From Phytohabitans houttuyneae (lineage in GTDB: Bacteria > Actinomycetota > Actinomycetes > Mycobacteriales > Micromonosporaceae), in NCBI RefSeq assembly GCF_011764425.1, contig NZ_BLPF01000002.1:248001-312000 (forward strand): a stretch of 64,000 nucleotides of DNA. Direction: 5' to 3'. Shown here one piece after another: positions 54,634 through 59,090 of this stretch. Within the stretch, counting starts at the first letter, position 1; each line of letters begins with the position of its first letter. A program made the translations under genes and the position numbers. The notes beneath the pieces are model-generated. The model worked only from the letters and a program-made list of their open reading frames with translations, was not told the origin of the DNA and did not search any database.

Positions 54634-54946
54634 TGATCTCAACGCCGACACCGACTCCGGGGAGCGAACGACATGTTGTGGCACGCCTCATCCAAACCGC
54701 AGCGCCAGCCGCTGTGCGGTTTCGTGGGCATGCCCTATGTCGGGCGACCCGTGGAGACGACCGCCAGCAAGCCGGCCCACCCGGGCCAGAGGTGGCGACC
54801 GTAACGCTTACGACAGCGTCTACGCCGCCCACCCAGACCAGGGACCGGGCGGCGTTTCCGTTGTTGCGCCACTTCAGCCCCGGCTTCGGCCGGTTGGCTT
54901 CGACTGTTGAAAACTCCACAGTGGATGGCATGCGTGAACGCCCGGC

Positions 54947-54978: not shown

Positions 54979-55051
54979 CGGGAACGACCGGCACGGTGAC
55001 CGGACCTGATTTGGGATCAGGAAGCGCGGGGTTCGACTCCCCGGTTCCCGA
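54979..55051 (+). tRNA. tRNA-Pro(TGG)
   Basis: Acceptor CGGGAAC/GTTCCCG, anticodon stem CCTGA/TCAGG with loop TTTGGGA (anticodon TGG), T stem CGGGG/CCCCG around TTCGACT. The D stem is a short self-complementary CCGG/CCGG. CCA is not encoded. It is the first gene of the array. Confidence 0.85.
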
Positions 55052-55059
55052 CGACGCTT

Positions 55060-55134
55060 GGGCCGTCGGAGCAGCTGGTTACGCTCACCTCGCTCTCAAC
55101 GAGGAGATCACGGGTTCGAGTCCCGTACAGCCTA
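55060..55134 (+). tRNA. tRNA-Glu(CTC)
   Basis: Acceptor GGGCCGT/ACAGCCT with one mismatch, D stem GAGC/GCTC, anticodon stem CCTCG/CGAGG with loop CTCTCAA (CTC), T stem ACGGG/CCCGT around TTCGAGT. The discriminator A is followed by encoded CCA. The acceptor mismatch may affect charging. Confidence 0.75.
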
Positions 55135-55138
55135 CCAT

Positions 55139-55213
55139 GCCCCTGTAGCTCATCTGGAGAAGAGCGTCGGCCTACGAAGTCGAAGGTGGCAGGTTCGAGT
55201 CCTGCCAGGGGTA
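55139..55213 (+). tRNA. tRNA-Arg(ACG)
   Basis: Acceptor GCCCCTG/CAGGGGT, D stem GCTC/GAGC, anticodon stem TCGGC/GTCGA with loop CTACGAA (ACG), T stem GCAGG/CCTGC around TTCGAGT. It starts one base after the CCA of the previous tRNA. Confidence 0.88.
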
Positions 55214-55218
55214 CGCAT

Positions 55219-55292
55219 CGGGACGTGGCGTAGCTTGGTAGCGCACTGCACTGGGGGTGCAGGGGTCGTCGGTTCGAATCCGGCCGTCCCGA
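55219..55292 (+). tRNA. tRNA-Pro(GGG)
   Basis: Acceptor CGGGACG/CGTCCCG, anticodon stem CTGCA/TGCAG with loop CTGGGGG (GGG), T stem GTCGG/CCGGC around TTCGAAT. CCA is not encoded. The second proline tRNA of the array. Confidence 0.9.
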
Positions 55293-55296
55293 CTGT

Positions 55297-55380
55297 GGAA
55301 GGCAGCGCGGCGTGGGCTGCAGCCGGCCTCGAAAGCCGGAGCCCGGTGCGAGCCGGCGGGTTCGACTCCTGTGCCTTCCG
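55297..55380 (+). tRNA. tRNA-Ser(CGA)
   Basis: Acceptor GGAAGGC/GCCTTCC, anticodon stem CCGGC/GCCGG with loop CTCGAAA (CGA), a long variable arm as in serine tRNAs, T loop TTCGACT. The discriminator G is followed by encoded CCA. Confidence 0.85.
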
Positions 55381-55384
55381 CCAC

Positions 55385-55456
55385 GCCTCCGTAGCTCAGA
55401 GGAAGAGCAACCGCCTCTTAAGCGGTGGGTCGGGATTTCGACATTCCCCGGGGGCA
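55385..55456 (+). tRNA. tRNA-Lys(CTT)
   Basis: Acceptor GCCTCCG/CGGGGGC, D stem GCTC/GAGC, anticodon stem ACCGC/GCGGT with loop CTCTTAA (CTT), T stem GGGAT/TTCCC with one T-T mismatch around TTCGACA. CCA is not encoded. Confidence 0.83.
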
Positions 55457-55467
55457 CGAGAACCACT

Positions 55468-55541
55468 TCTCTCACTAGCTCAACGGATAGAGCGCCCGCG
55501 TCCTAAGCGGCGGATCCGGGTTCGACTCCTGGGTGGGAGAC
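55468..55541 (+). tRNA. tRNA-Arg(CCT)
   Basis: Acceptor TCTCTCA/TGGGAGA, D stem GCTC/GAGC, anticodon stem with four of five pairs around loop GTCCTAA (CCT), T stem CCGGG/CCTGG around TTCGACT. A second T-loop-like piece, GTTCGATTCCC, follows directly at 55542-55552 as a tRNA leftover. Confidence 0.75.
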
Positions 55542-55566
55542 GTTCGATTCCCGCGCGCGCGACCCT

Positions 55567-55650
55567 TCCCGTGTAGACCGTAAACGGAAGCGGGCCGGAC
55601 TGTTAATCCGGTGGCGGAAGCCTCTGCTGGTTCGAGTCCAGCCGCGGGAG
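55567..55650 (+). tRNA. tRNA with Asn anticodon (GTT) and a long variable arm
   Basis: Acceptor TCCCGTG/CGCGGGA, anticodon stem CCGGA/TCCGG with loop CTGTTAA (GTT), T stem GCTGG/CCAGC around TTCGAGT. The 14-base variable region folds as GGC-GGAA-GCC, as in class II tRNAs (Ser, Leu, Tyr), which is not normal for Asn. The D arm is poor. Decoding identity is uncertain. Confidence 0.65.
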
Positions 55651-55698
55651 CGTTGGTGGAGCCGGCCTGGCTGCGGAAGGGCCGGCGCGCCGCGCAAC

Positions 55699-55770
55699 GC
55701 CTGTGTAGCTCAACGGAAGAGCGCCGCTCTTACAAAGCGGAGGCCGGGGGTTCGACACCCTCCTCAGGCA
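55699..55770 (+). tRNA. tRNA-Val(TAC)
   Basis: Acceptor GCCTGTG/CTCAGGC with one mismatch, D stem GCTC/GAGC, anticodon stem CCGCT/AGCGG with loop CTTACAA (TAC), T stem GGGGG/CCCTC around TTCGACA. CCA is not encoded. Confidence 0.83.
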
Positions 55771-55771
55771 C

Positions 55772-55848
55772 GGTGACTGTGGTGTACCGGCAGTGCACGG
55801 CAGGCTGTGGCCCTGCAGGTCCCGGATCGTCCCCGGGCAGTCACCCCA
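55772..55848 (+). tRNA. tRNA-His(GTG)
   Basis: Position -1 G (55772) pairs with discriminator C, the identity mark of histidine tRNA. Acceptor GTGACTG/CAGTCAC, D stem GTGT/GCAC, anticodon stem GCAGG/CCTGC with loop CTGTGGC (GTG), T stem CCCGG/CCGGG, CCA encoded. The T loop is ATCGTCC instead of the usual TTCRANN, which is atypical. Confidence 0.75.
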
Positions 55849-55856
55849 CGCGAGGA

Positions 55857-55902
55857 CGCCACCGGTGGTGAGGTGGGCCGGCCGTAACCCGGTTGCCTTT
55901 GT
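55857..55902 (+). pseudogene. Partial tRNA-Tyr (D arm and anticodon arm only)
   Basis: This copy matches bases 57148-57194 of the complete tRNA-Tyr with two substitutions and one missing base, including the GTA anticodon loop (CCGTAAC). No T arm or acceptor partner follows. It cannot fold as a tRNA. It forms a direct repeat with the full gene on either side of a 1.25-kb segment. Confidence 0.7.
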
Positions 55903-56569
55903 CTTCAGCCTGGATCCACCGATCAATAGCGACCGGCTTGGTGTGTCCGAATAGGAGAGTACCCCTGACCTGGGAAGATCGTGCCGTTCGTTCAGGAGAG
56001 CGTCTTGTCGCTGGTCGACCACTTCGACCTGCCGGATGAAGCCTGGCGCGGCGCCGTGTGGCGCTAGAGACCTTTCGCGGTCAGGGTGAGCCTTCGCAGA
56101 GTCCGACCCGAGTTAGCTGTGAGCTGCCGCTGTGCCCGCGGGTACCGACTCACCCTCCGCGGTCGCCCAGCTCAACCCAGGAGCCCTGATCCGGCAGATC
56201 TTGGCAAGTTAGCGTCGAAATAACGCGCCAACTCACCAAGGTCTCGGCTGCGGCGCCGCTTGCGTGCGACGGATGGTTGCTGACGGTAGTAGAGCCCTCC
56301 AGGACGGCGCTGCATCGTGGGCGGACTCGGCGCCGCGGTCCGTGACTGTTGATTCGGAGCAGGCCCTCGGGGTTGAGCCTGGGGACCGCGCAGGGTGAGG
56401 CCGCGGGAACGCACCCCCGGGGAAACGTGGAGCGCAGCGGAGCGTTTCCCCGGGGGCCCCGCACAACGGTCCGGACCACCGCGGACATCGCGGCAGCTCA
56501 CATCTCGTTCGCTTTGAACTTTCCAGAAGGGCTCACCCTGACCGCGACAGGTCCTTAGACTCGCCGGCA
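55903..56569. other. Segment without a clear gene, within the tRNA-flanked insert
   Basis: A short frame, VPFVQESVLSLVDHFDLPDE, ends at TAG near 56069, without ribosome site or known relatives. The rest is GC-rich and non-coding in appearance, with a strong hairpin at 56414-56456. Promoter sequences for the 56570 gene should be here. Confidence 0.35.
56414..56456. repeat. Long perfect inverted repeat
   Basis: CCCCCGGGGAAACG and CGTTTCCCCGGGGG are a perfect 14-base inverted repeat with a 15-base loop. It may be a terminator for leftward or rightward transcripts, or an element end. It lies 114 bases before the reductase gene. Confidence 0.6.
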
Positions 56570-57127
56570 ATGGGAATCCTCACGTTCAGCATCAACGTCA
56601 CCCTGGATGGTTGCGTCGACCACCAGGAGGGGATTGCCGACGACGAGACACACGCGTTCTTCACCAGACTCCTGGACGAGCGCGGAGCGATGCTGTGGGG
56701 TCGTGTCACTTACGAGATGATGGAGGGCTACTGGCCGGCCGTCGCCCGGGGCGATGTGGAAGCGCCGCCGTCCTTGCGTGAGTGGGCGGTCAAGCTGGAG
56801 GCCAAACAGAAGTATGTGGTGTCGTCGACGCGCGAGGACTTTCCGTGGACCAACAGCCACCACATCGGCGGCGATCTGCGTGAGGGCGTGCAGAAGCTCA
56901 AGGACGCGACCCCGGCCGGGGTCCTGCTCGGAAGCGGCAAGCTCGCGACCGAGCTCGACCGGCTGGACCTGATCGACGAGTACAAACTGCTGGTCCATCC
57001 CAGGATTGCCGGCCATGGCCCGACGCTGTACCAGGACGGGCTGCCCAGCACGCGCCAGCTCGAGCTGCTCTCGGCGGAGCCGCTCAGCAACGGTGTGGTG
57101 TCCATGCACTACCGCCGCGCGCGCTGA
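56570..57127 (+). CDS. Dihydrofolate-reductase/RibD C-terminal-family protein
   Basis: A 185-residue protein of the RibD_C family, which shares the DHFR fold and usually binds NADPH. It begins MGILTFSINVTLDGCVDHQE and has AMLWGRVTYEMMEGYWPAV, KYVVSSTREDFPWTNSHHIG, GVLLGSGKLATELDRLDLID and YKLLVHPRIAGHGPTLY, the family core. Its substrate is usually unknown; most stand-alone members are not true DHFRs. No clear ribosome site precedes the ATG, so it may be leaderless. It lies inside the segment flanked by tRNA-Tyr sequences, 13 bases before the full tRNA-Tyr. Confidence 0.85.
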   Translation: MGILTFSINVTLDGCVDHQEGIADDETHAFFTRLLDERGAMLWGRVTYEMMEGYWPAVARGDVEAPPSLREWAVKLEAKQKYVVSSTREDFPWTNSHHIGGDLREGVQKLKDATPAGVLLGSGKLATELDRLDLIDEYKLLVHPRIAGHGPTLYQDGLPSTRQLELLSAEPLSNGVVSMHYRRAR

Positions 57128-57140
57128 GTCACACGTCCGA

Positions 57141-57224
57141 GCGGGCGCGCCACCGATGGTGAGGTGGGGCCGGCTGTAACCCGGTTGCCTTTGTGCTCAG
57201 GGAGTTCGAGTCTCTCCGCCCGCA
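57141..57224 (+). tRNA. tRNA-Tyr(GTA)
   Basis: Acceptor GCGGGCG/CGCCCGC, five-pair D stem CCACC/GGTGG, anticodon stem GCCGG/CCGGT with loop CTGTAAC (GTA), long variable region as in bacterial tRNA-Tyr, T stem GGGAG/CTCTC around TTCGAGT, discriminator A. CCA is not encoded. It ends 56 bases before the predicted Y RNA. Confidence 0.85.
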
Positions 57225-57280
57225 CGGTGCGAATGCCATCCACTGTGGACTGCCGTCCGGGGTTGGTTCTCGGAGGGGTG

Positions 57281-57457
57281 TGTACGGGCACGCTGGCGGC
57301 CAGCCTGTGTGAAGGACGGGGCTACTTCGACTCTGGATCGAGAGGGTGCGGGTTCGAGTCCCGCCGTCCCCACCAGCCTGGGGACGTAGCTCAAATGGAA
57401 GAGCGCTAACGTTCCTCGTCCGACTGGTTCTCGGCTGGCCTCCAGCGTGCCCGTGCA
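57281..57457 (+). ncRNA. yrlA: Predicted Y RNA of the YrlA type with a tRNA-like module
   Basis: The ends, 57281-57305 and 57433-57457, pair over 24 of 25 positions with one C-U mismatch. After an internal loop, a second helix joins 57314-57321 to 57414-57421. Inside is a tRNA-like module in permuted order: a small hairpin (57326-57342), T arm GCGGG-TTCGAGT-CCCGC, acceptor strand CGTCCCC, joining loop ACCAGCCT, the partner strand GGGGACG, TA, and D arm GCTC/GAGC. This is the architecture known for bacterial Y RNAs that bind Ro60. The gene directly before a Ro60 (TROVE) gene supports it. Ends are predicted from pairing alone. Confidence 0.78.
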
Positions 57458-57494
57458 AACGCCTCTCCCCAACGCATGAAGGGAAGAGGCGTTT
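57457..57494 (+). terminator. Hairpin after the Y RNA that also masks the Ro60 ribosome site
   Basis: AAACGCCTCTCCC pairs with GGGAAGAGGCGTTT through 13 pairs and one bulged A, followed by T and CC. It can end the Y RNA. The right arm contains GAGG (57486-57489), the ribosome site of the ATG at 57498, so the same hairpin would block translation of Ro60. Confidence 0.6.
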
Positions 57495-57497
57495 TCC

Positions 57498-59090
57498 ATG
57501 GCCAAGTTCAACACCACCAGGACGCGCGCTGCTGCGGGCAACGGCCCGCTGGCCGCCGAGAAGACGCCGAGCCTGCGCACGTACGAGGGTGCGCCGGGCT
57601 TCGCCCGGGACGTGAAGTCCGAGCTGTTCCTGCTGGCCGTCGCCAACTTCGTCGGCGAGGACACGTTCTACGAGAAGGCCGGTTCGCGGGACGGCCGGTT
57701 CGCCGGCCTGGTCCGGCAGGTGGCGTACGCCGACGTCGACTGGCTGACCGCCTTCCTGCGGTGGCTGCGCACGGACGCCAACCTGCGGTCCGCGCCGATC
57801 GTGGCTGCCGCGGAGGCCGTCAAGGCGCGGCTCGACGCCGGTGTGCACGGCGGCAACCGTCAGCTTGTCACCGCGGTCATGGCGCGTGCGGACGAGCCGG
57901 GCGAGTTCCTGGCGTACTGGCGTTCGCGGTTCGGCCGCACCGTTCCGCTGCCGGTCAAGAACGGCCTGCGCGACGCCGTCGTGCGGCTGTACTCGGAGCG
58001 GAGCCTGCTCAAGTACGACACCGGCGCGCGAGGCTACCGGTTCGCGGACCTGATCGACCTGTACCGGCCGGCGCCGAAGGACGAGCGCCAGTCGGCACTG
58101 TTCCGGCACGCGCTCGACCGGCGGCACCACCGCGCCGACGACGTTCCCGCGGTGCTGTCGATGCTGCGTACCCGCGGCGAGCTGGCGGCGCTGCCGGTGG
58201 GCGAGCGGCGCGCGGTCCTGGCCGACCCCGCGCGGCTGGCCCGAGCCGGCATGACGTGGGAGGCGCTGTCCGGGTGGCTGGACGGGCCGATGGACAAGGC
58301 GGCGTGGGAGGCGATGATTCCCTCGATGGGCATCATGGCGCTGGCGCGAAACCTGCGAAACTTCGACGAGGCGGGCGTCAGCGACCAGGTCGCCGCGACC
58401 GTGGCGGCGCGGTTCGCCGACCCGGCCGAGGTCGCCAAGTCCCGGATGTTCCCGTTCCGCTGGCTCGCGGCGTACGAGCAGGCGCCGTCGCCGCGGTGGG
58501 GCCACGCCCTGGACAAGGCGCTGCAGGCGTCCCTGTCGCACCTGCCGGCCATGCCGGGCCGCACCTTGGTGCTGGTGGACACCTCGGCGTCGATGTCCTC
58601 GGGCGGCTTCTCGAAGCACTCGAAGATGACGCCGGTGAAGGCGGCCGCCGTGTTCGGCGTCGCGCTGGCGGCGAAGGGGGAGCGCGTGGACCTGCACGGG
58701 TTCGCCGACGGTGTGTTCCGCCACCGGGTCGGCAAGGGCGCGTCGGTGATCAAGGAGGTGGCGGCGTTCTGCAAGCGGATCGGCGAGGTGGGCCACGGCA
58801 CCCAGGTCGCCCAGTCGATCCGGGCCACGTTTGCGGGCCACGACCGGGTGTTCGTCATCTCGGACATGCAGACGATGACCGGCCACCACGCCGGCGGCGT
58901 CATGCAGGCCGTGCCGCGGTCGGTGCCGCTGTACGGCGTCAACCTGGGCGGTTACCGGCCGGCGGCGTTCGATGCCGGCTCGCCGAACCGGATCGAGTTC
59001 GGTGGCCTCACCGACGCCATGTTCAGGATCGTCCCGCTGGTCGAGGCGGGCGGCGACGCTTCCTGGCCGTGGTTGGCGCCACAAGGGTGA
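57498..59090 (+). CDS. rsr: Ro60-family (TROVE domain) RNA-binding protein
   Basis: A 530-residue ring-shaped Ro60 homologue. Residues about 30-345 form the helical TROVE domain (GFARDVKSELFLLAVANFVG, GRFAGLVRQVAYADVDWLTA, VTAVMARADEPGEFLAYWRS). Residues 355-530 form a von Willebrand A domain with the metal site VLVDTSASMSSGG (Asp near 361) and RVFVISDMQTMTGHHAGG. Ro60 binds Y RNA and the ends of misfolded RNA. In Deinococcus and Salmonella it works with PNPase or the RtcB repair operon. GAGG lies eight bases before the ATG, within a hairpin. The tRNA array and Y RNA upstream form a likely single RNA-handling unit. Confidence 0.93.
   Translation: MAKFNTTRTRAAAGNGPLAAEKTPSLRTYEGAPGFARDVKSELFLLAVANFVGEDTFYEKAGSRDGRFAGLVRQVAYADVDWLTAFLRWLRTDANLRSAPIVAAAEAVKARLDAGVHGGNRQLVTAVMARADEPGEFLAYWRSRFGRTVPLPVKNGLRDAVVRLYSERSLLKYDTGARGYRFADLIDLYRPAPKDERQSALFRHALDRRHHRADDVPAVLSMLRTRGELAALPVGERRAVLADPARLARAGMTWEALSGWLDGPMDKAAWEAMIPSMGIMALARNLRNFDEAGVSDQVAATVAARFADPAEVAKSRMFPFRWLAAYEQAPSPRWGHALDKALQASLSHLPAMPGRTLVLVDTSASMSSGGFSKHSKMTPVKAAAVFGVALAAKGERVDLHGFADGVFRHRVGKGASVIKEVAAFCKRIGEVGHGTQVAQSIRATFAGHDRVFVISDMQTMTGHHAGGVMQAVPRSVPLYGVNLGGYRPAAFDAGSPNRIEFGGLTDAMFRIVPLVEAGGDASWPWLAPQG

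Follow-up and report, generated by a model that had tools for sequence, protein, structure and literature searches.

The window analysed here is a stretch of 64,000 nucleotides from the Phytohabitans houttuyneae genome (C2:248001-312000) that encodes, on its plus strand, a 530-amino-acid Ro60 (TROVE domain) protein at 57498..59090. We base this assignment on a Pfam TROVE match (1.4e-12, residues 267-326), on two solved TROVE-domain proteins that match at 2.3e-26 with both halves covered, and on an AlphaFold2 model (pLDDT 80.9) with a helical first part and alternating strands and helices toward the end. The protein is the single Ro60 match in the genome (11.3 Mb; completeness 95%). Directly upstream and on the same strand lies a candidate Y RNA gene (57281-57457), recognized from its fold and sequence; the Ro60 start codon, at 57498, stands 40 nt past its closing stem. 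Further upstream, ARAGORN calls an array of 10 tRNA genes within 870 nt (54979..55848, plus strand) and an 11th tRNA gene, for Tyr, at 57141-57225 (plus strand), and seven of these 11 calls also reach the Rfam tRNA threshold. A hairpin at 57457..57494 (plus strand; -20.2 kcal/mol, z -5.04), absent from the terminator scan list, has a 3' arm that ends in TTT(T) over the likely Ro60 ribosome-binding site. An extension of the outer stem of the Y RNA, visible as an inverted repeat, would compete with the 5' arm of this hairpin and could thereby couple Y RNA and Ro60 expression.

The Y RNA, all of whose elements are read on the plus strand, is closed by a terminal stem that would bind Ro60. Its 5' strand (57281..57305) and 3' strand (57433..57457) fold into 16 pairs (57281-57296 with 57442-57457) and 8 pairs (57298-57305 with 57433-57440) on either side of a single unpaired position, 57297/57441; the outer stem is also recovered from 41 relatives. 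An internal loop follows, with TGTGTGAA on its 5' side (57306..57313) and GACTGGTTCTC on its 3' side (57422..57432), which we take to be the Ro60 binding site, as in the Y RNA literature. In relatives the 5' side reads GTGCGCA or GTGCGAA and the 3' side takes forms such as GACTTTGATCTC; across the alignment of 41 Y RNAs, the GUG, G and AG columns of this putative site are invariant and its CUC and GG columns near-invariant. The inner helix then pairs GGACGGGG (57314..57321) with CCTCGTCC (57414..57421) over eight positions, in the fold as in the consensus of the 41 sequences. A sequence-only reading of this stretch had described both the pairing of the two ends over 24 of 25 positions and the eight-pair inner helix, and the fold and the sequence reproduce the two of them.

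Between the strands of the inner helix lies a tRNA-like module. It opens with a CTAC linker (57322..57325) that belongs to a UACUUC motif conserved in the 41 relatives, and continues with an anticodon arm (57326..57342) predicted by comparison, made of TTCGA (tRNA positions 27-31), the loop CTCTGGA (32-38, with the triplet CTG) and TCGAG (39-43). The variable region AGGGT (44-48; 57343..57347), assigned through the 15:48 covariation of relatives, leads into the T arm GCGGG-TTCGAGT-CCCGC (57348..57364). The acceptor stem CGTCCCC / GGGGACG (57365..57386) forms 7/7 pairs, its 3' strand (57365-57371) being joined to its 5' strand (57380-57386) by the loop ACCAGCCT (57372-57379). The last part (57387..57405) comprises positions 8-9, the D arm GCTC-AAATGGAA-GAGC (57389-57404) and position 26. 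The T arm, acceptor stem and D arm are seen in the fold and in relatives, and all stand in the permuted order that the sequence-only reading had given them. Along the chain, the order is Ro stem, inner helix, anticodon arm, variable region, T arm, 3' acceptor strand, short loop, 5' acceptor strand, D arm, inner helix and Ro stem.

That reading had, however, passed over the 26 nt between the inner helix and the T arm (57322-57347), which hold the anticodon arm and the variable region. Its statement that the Ro-binding stem stands in for the anticodon arm agrees with the Rfam YrlA consensus, while the RNA of the window and its near relatives keep the arm. As judged by comparison with these relatives, all four tRNA arms are present, and the Ro stem branches off the tRNA body between positions 26 and 27 rather than taking the place of the anticodon arm. 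We conclude that 57281-57457 is very probably a Y RNA of the YrlA kind with a complete, circularly permuted tRNA module broken at 26/27. The terminal stem, the permuted module and the position of the TROVE gene agree with the earlier placement of a YrlA-type Y RNA directly before Ro60.

Thermodynamic folding supports the RNA as a whole. The fold of 57276-57460 reaches -102.7 kcal/mol against a shuffled mean of -77.2 (z -5.42), with 0/200 shuffles as good, while the module alone (57324-57405) is only slightly better than its shuffles (z -1.68, 15/200 as good). The single-sequence minimum-energy fold prefers another 5-pair hairpin (GACUC/GAGGG) over the anticodon arm. The fold proposed as a check by the sequence-only reading thus bears out the RNA and leaves out this arm, which in the window's own sequence rests on comparison with relatives.

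We therefore turn to the comparison. From 61 Y RNAs with an arm-like spacing of 21-25 nt and locatable ends, a criterion of spacing and not of pairing, 41 were aligned with MAFFT. RNAalifold on this alignment predicted, unprompted, the anticodon arm together with the Ro stem, the inner helix, the T arm, the acceptor and the D arm. In the relatives, the arm stretch consists of five pairs and a 7-nt loop, followed by a variable region of 4-6 nt; in the consensus, pair 30:40 occurs as C-G, G-C, U-A and A-U, and pair 31:39 as four Watson-Crick types. Paired arm cells amount to 96.1% against a shuffled mean of 79.2%, covariation to 0.485 against 0.179, and arm cells changed on both sides to 27 against 6.1, and for each of these measures 0/500 shuffles were as high. 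The signal is lost when the alignment is slid by 1-3 columns. Counts of pairs changed on both sides (2 versus 1.9 in shuffles) and of further pair types (8 versus 7.0) show no excess in this arm alignment. The covariation signal comes from the two inner pairs, the outer three being nearly fixed with UUC on the 5' side. At the commonest spacing, 22, the 5/5 pairs with a 7-nt loop are formed by 27/32 distinct sequences, while other layouts reach at most 6.

The loops of these arms follow the rules of anticodon loops, and these rules, at U33, A38 and G36-G37, played no part in arm selection. U33 is found in 42/42 and A38 in 40/42 distinct full arms. G36 is accompanied by G37 in 8/8 of these arms, against 3/34 with another base at 36 (Fisher 1.4e-6); since related sequences are not independent, such p-values for arm-loop bases are only guides. 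Among the ordinary tRNAs of the viral stretches described below, G36 is accompanied by G37 in 74/114. The tertiary pair 15:48 is A:U or G:C in 99/102 bacterial and 77/77 viral Y RNAs, and it covaries; the window has the Levitt pair A15:U48. This count leaves out short forms without a variable region and rows without A14; from the viral set, it leaves out 26/112 without a loose acceptor and then 9/86 without a readable D arm and A14. Position 48 precedes position 15 in the permuted chain, yet the two covary, which points to a tRNA-like core and not to helices alone. Altogether, this comparison of sequences establishes the four arms, pair 15:48, the rules of the anticodon loop and the linkage to Ro60.

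To define the linkage, we used the long matches of a search that matched 63/200 genomes, which gave 60 Ro60 loci of the Micromonosporaceae (the family taken in its wide GTDB sense). A full-length match to our Y RNA covariance model stands upstream of Ro60 on the same strand at 50/60 of them, one unsearched locus being counted as a miss; the window itself scores 116.5 bits over the full length, as one of the 41 sequences in the model. Hairpins with five pairs and a 7-nt loop occur at 37/60 loci, two of which (L162, L178) are unlike anticodon arms. The anticodon arm is not universal, as 13/50 family loci with a model match lack the 5-pair/7-nt form. A separate scan for the module upstream of Ro60 found it in 68/80 named records (the best 80 of 190 relatives), 41/60 family loci and 5/8 phage or plasmid pieces, with a full anticodon arm in 49, 22 and 1 of them, respectively. 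All these loci were chosen for their Ro60 gene and their sequence was oriented to it; two control stretches per locus gave the module in 0/80 and 0/60. The scan misses some arms, for instance that of Gordonia phage VanLee (TTCGC-CTTCTAA-GCGGG). The sequence-only reading had named homologous loci without compensating changes in the closing stem as evidence against a Y RNA, and we found that relatives keep this stem by such changes.

The form of the arm varies outside the aligned set. In many Streptomyces Y RNAs close to Ro60, the stretch is shorter (spacing 18-20), or it is longer and goes with a Leu-like D arm. The Leu-like D arm (TGGCGGAA...GACGC) is seen about 150 nt before Ro60 in the Streptomyces loci L026, L028, L031 and others; these Y RNAs show no clear anticodon arm and look derived from a class II tRNA with a long variable arm. 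Model matches of about 80 nt near longer Y RNAs (L011 4616-4695, L045 4716-4796 and others) appear to be Ro-stem RNAs that lack a tRNA-like module. Y RNAs of a Caulobacter phage and a Xanthomonas phage carry the same anticodon arm as the relatives of the window. In the rtcR/rtcBA operon of Xanthomonas sacchari we found two Y RNAs (L277 3736-3864 and 3475-3604), of which one passes the YrlA threshold and the other falls short of it. Both carry a 13-nt insert that could form the shortened arms AGC-CUCUUAA-GCU and AGC-CUCCGAA-GCU and that Rfam treats as an insertion.

We further investigated the arm in viral contigs with a pattern that requires UACUUC, the three outer pairs of the arm, the loop frame (Y32, U33, A37, A38) and a portion of the T arm, and that leaves the two inner pairs (30:40, 31:39) and positions 34-36 free. 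The pattern gave at least 120 matches, 112 after removal of 8 duplicates, and this set is nearly, although not wholly, separate from the bacterial one (L293 has the same sequence as L022). Among these 112 distinct matches listed, 110 form 5/5 arm pairs though the inner two were free, and 90 also have a Ro60-like gene in the same stretch (tblastn E <= 1e-4); 11 of the 22 listed matches without such a gene have less than 1.2 kb of sequence downstream. A strict permuted acceptor, with a loop of 3-12 nt, at least 6/7 pairs and the D-arm start, is found in 71/112 listed matches, 56 of them with Ro60, against 4/112 when the acceptor strand is shuffled. We rejected a loose version of this count (86/112 listed matches, loops of 3-39 nt) as too weak, since 58/112 also pass once the acceptor strand is shuffled. 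A slightly modified pattern gave no match in the window's genome (93 tRNA matches); the Y RNA of the window has G37, which lies outside the pattern.

These viral sequences bear on whether the arm is a passive relic of tRNA ancestry, tolerated by the core fold of an RNA that functions like any YrlA, as an exonuclease tether. Consistent with such a relic, the G36-G37 and U36-A37 rules also hold for real tRNAs, the D arms of Y RNAs are of differing sequence types, and the arm is lost or shortened in many relatives. Against it, diverged viral sets retain the arm, with compensating changes: among the viral matches listed, both free pairs are standard in 58/60 distinct arms, compared with a shuffled mean of 14 and a maximum of 25. 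U36 is also commoner in these arms (52/60 distinct arms of the matches listed) than in ordinary tRNAs of the same stretches filtered alike (158/294; Fisher 1.1e-6). We regard a passive relic as quite possible, though doubtful.

A second alternative denies the arm itself: the RNA would be an ordinary YrlA in which the Ro stem replaces the anticodon arm, and 57322-57347 an unstructured linker or an unrelated hairpin. YrlA is described in the available excerpt of PMC8394870 as resembling the D, T and acceptor arms of tRNA, the Rfam consensus (RF02553) separates the stem from the T arm by only 4 unpaired nt, and the single-sequence fold lacks the anticodon arm. The consensus fold, the covariation, the 7-nt loop rules and the 15:48 pair of relatives, together with the viral set, make this alternative improbable. 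The Rfam YrlA covariance model, proposed as a test by the sequence-only reading, matches the window over model positions 24-84, at 34.1 bits and so below its gathering threshold of 69; the threshold is likewise reached in 0/10 and 0/11 further sources, the second set including the locus of the window. With the architecture of YrlA, a score below gathering and an anticodon arm, we consider the RNA to be of the YrlA kind without being a member of RF02553 as defined. Like YrlA (Salmonella YrlA, PDB 6CU1, as cited in the same excerpt of PMC8394870), it has a terminal Ro stem, a permuted T-acceptor-D order and a gene adjoining Ro60; unlike the YrlA consensus, it has an added anticodon arm and variable region. 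We found no description of an anticodon arm in any Y RNA in the open literature searched, a scope outside which the founding papers lie. The current Rfam model misses these Y RNAs at its curated threshold.

A third possibility is a permuted tRNA gene whose transcript is cut and rejoined into a functional tRNA-Gln(CUG). Circularly permuted tRNA genes of algae and archaea also carry the 3' half before the 5' half and, as far as the consulted part of PMC3978253 reports, are processed to working tRNAs, with breakpoints at 20/21, 37/38, 50/51 and 59/60 in Cyanidioschyzon merolae. Unlike these, the RNA of the window is broken at 26/27, its halves are joined to a long stem and its acceptor end is a closed short loop. 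ARAGORN does call the reordered module of the window a tRNA-Gln(ctg) of 76 nt, the acceptor loop begins with ACCA, and an RtcB ligase is encoded elsewhere in the genome, the Salmonella-like rtcBA context being absent at the window locus. However, ARAGORN is permissive on reordered modules: with 105 of 114 distinct rows, 94/105 were called as compared with 68/105 when the arm stretch was shuffled, and 0/105 in native order, so that we discarded this as a test of the arm. Anticodon triplets differ among relatives, ACCA begins only 6/89 distinct acceptor loops, and the loops of many relatives are short (TTCG or GCAA, for example), which would leave little room for end processing. A working permuted tRNA gene is accordingly very unlikely here.

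We give next to no credence to junk between two tRNA-like fragments of a decaying array that folds by chance: although partial model matches at 29-105 sit on tRNA genes like junctions and the adjoining array contains a duplicated tRNA piece, the fold (z -5.42), the full-length model score (with the window sequence in the model) and the presence of the same RNA upstream of Ro60 in relatives with and without arrays, and its absence from control stretches, already refute chance folding, unless these comparative data are wrong. We return to a Y RNA of the YrlA kind with a complete permuted tRNA module.

The module looks as though the 3' half of a tRNA had been joined to the 5' half of its successor. 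Partial matches to the model (29-105) are located in tRNA clusters and resemble junctions of neighboring genes; for this reason we rejected the phylum-wide model search (215/296 genomes matched) as a census, many of its matches covering only this part. Permuted tRNA genes have been proposed, in the part of PMC3978253 available, to originate from tandem tRNA copies that lose their outer halves. Acceptor loops that start with ACCA exceed their shuffled mean of 0.67 (maximum 6 in 5000 shuffles), as would be expected if tRNA genes are the ancestors. The sequence-only reading had taken the ACCA of the window as a trace of a real tRNA and had suggested that the Y RNA arose from members of the neighboring array. 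The first part finds modest and general support in this excess; the second does not, as neither half of the Y RNA closely copies any of the 11 tRNAs in the array, the best match to its T arm plus acceptor elsewhere in the genome shows 3 mismatches in 25, and fewer than 5 tRNA calls lie upstream at 39/50 family loci that have such a Y RNA. The window's Y RNA is no recent copy of its neighbors, so that an origin from the neighboring array is not supported.

The link between Ro60 and tRNA arrays, which that reading had noted at this locus, is nevertheless real in the family. At 11/60 family Ro60 loci, the window included, 6 to 36 tRNA calls lie within 6 kb upstream on the same strand; 6/60 loci have less than 6 kb of upstream sequence, and one of the six calls in L155 is the Y RNA itself. 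At least 5 tRNA calls downstream of Ro60 are found at 0/60 family loci. The order Asn-Val-His-Tyr recurs in 7/11 array loci. Ro60 also stands inside large tRNA clusters in the Streptomyces phages BRock and pSt2308 and in Arthrobacter phage Atuin, and at least 5 tRNA calls are present in 32/112 listed viral stretches with the arm pattern. TROVE proteins are counted among RNA-repair genes in the available portion of a jumbo-phage survey (PMC7824862). The genome of the window has a second, larger tRNA cluster (G000:C1:3840054-3843578) away from its one Ro60 match, which shows that the link is not obligatory.

What such an RNA might do can be approached from the Deinococcus system, in which Y RNA tethers Ro60 to PNPase (PMC8394870 and PMC7790460, each in excerpt). 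Like this Y RNA/Rsr/PNPase machine (RYPER), the locus combines a Ro60 protein with an adjoining Y RNA gene, and the machine offers a model of how a tether would work. Unlike it, the Ro60 of the window is a distant TROVE protein (NCBIfam Rsr 26 bits, cut-off 900), and PNPase binding would follow only by analogy. Ro60 would hold the terminal stem of the Y RNA, while the tRNA-shaped end would recruit a tRNA-recognizing partner, as PNPase is recruited by the Deinococcus Y RNA. Given an intact anticodon arm, the partners may include readers of the anticodon loop, such as modification enzymes, anticodon nucleases and repair ligases. We favor a Ro60 RNP that would present the closed tRNA end as a bait or sensor for tRNA damage; the acceptor, closed by a short loop, is presumably unchargeable, which suits either role. 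In some genomes, the adjoining arrays could supply spare tRNAs.

The Y RNA is perhaps a bait for anticodon-loop enzymes. Phage tRNAs are thought to counter anticodon-nuclease cuts (PMC10264068, in the part available), and AriB cuts three tRNAs that have U36-A-A-U in common close to the cleavage site, namely tRNA-Lys(UUU), Thr(UGU) and Asn(GUU) (PMC12409363, likewise in part). As with these anti-nuclease tRNAs, there are tRNA arrays beside Ro60 both in the window and in actinophages, and the loops of these Y RNAs commonly carry U36-A-A; unlike in that work, which concerns ordinary tRNAs in the passages available from both sources, the RNAs here are Y RNAs, and the loop of the window, CUCUGGA, is of the G36-G37 class and not U36-A-A. 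Salmonella YrlA was judged no substrate of the RecA-dependent anticodon nuclease, according to the excerpt of PMC7790460. The intact arm makes an interplay with anticodon-loop nucleases more plausible for the Y RNAs described here, although the G36-G37 class of the window loop must be kept in mind.

In its fullest form, our proposal is that the Ro60 RNPs of actinobacteria and of many phages carry a permuted, closed-ended decoy tRNA, with an arm selected to draw and occupy or to sense anticodon nucleases, and that, where arrays adjoin, array, decoy Y RNA and Ro60 form one counter-defense or tRNA-repair unit. We offer it tentatively and think it rather unlikely. Under the decoy reading, the common arm loop CUNNUAA would reproduce the U36-A37-A38 context of ANN-decoding tRNAs. 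Bacterial Y RNAs are described, in the literature consulted, as mimics of the D, T and acceptor arms, while the widespread form with an anticodon arm and a 15:48 pair would be a mimic of the whole tRNA, which widens the possible Y RNA partners to every enzyme that reads the anticodon loop. This gives a testable reason for Ro60, Y RNAs and tRNA arrays to stand together in bacteria and phages.

Several features surround the array of the window. The 5' part of the tRNA-Tyr gene is present twice (direct repeats D5 and D6, 55850-55908 and 57141-57200), about 1.29 kb apart, and a RibD-like gene (56570-57127) lies between the two copies, an arrangement that resembles an insertion or duplication splitting the end of the array. 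The interval from the array to the RibD-like gene holds nested inverted repeats (56064-56558; 74-90% complementary) that form one palindrome of about 0.5 kb. Inverted copies of GCCATCCACTGTGGA flank the array at 54915-54934 and 57230-57249; the genome contains 9 exact copies of this sequence, some of them close to further tRNA clusters, compared with none of a reversed control, and copies also occur in array-bearing stretches of relatives.

Y RNAs of this form can be annotated as tRNA genes. In Gordonia phage VanLee (NC_073474; L114 4701-4845), an annotated tRNA-Arg(tct) lies inside a full-length Y RNA match of 105.6 bits. In L155, ARAGORN calls a tRNA-Met inside the Y RNA, and at other loci of the family single tRNA calls stand equally far from Ro60.
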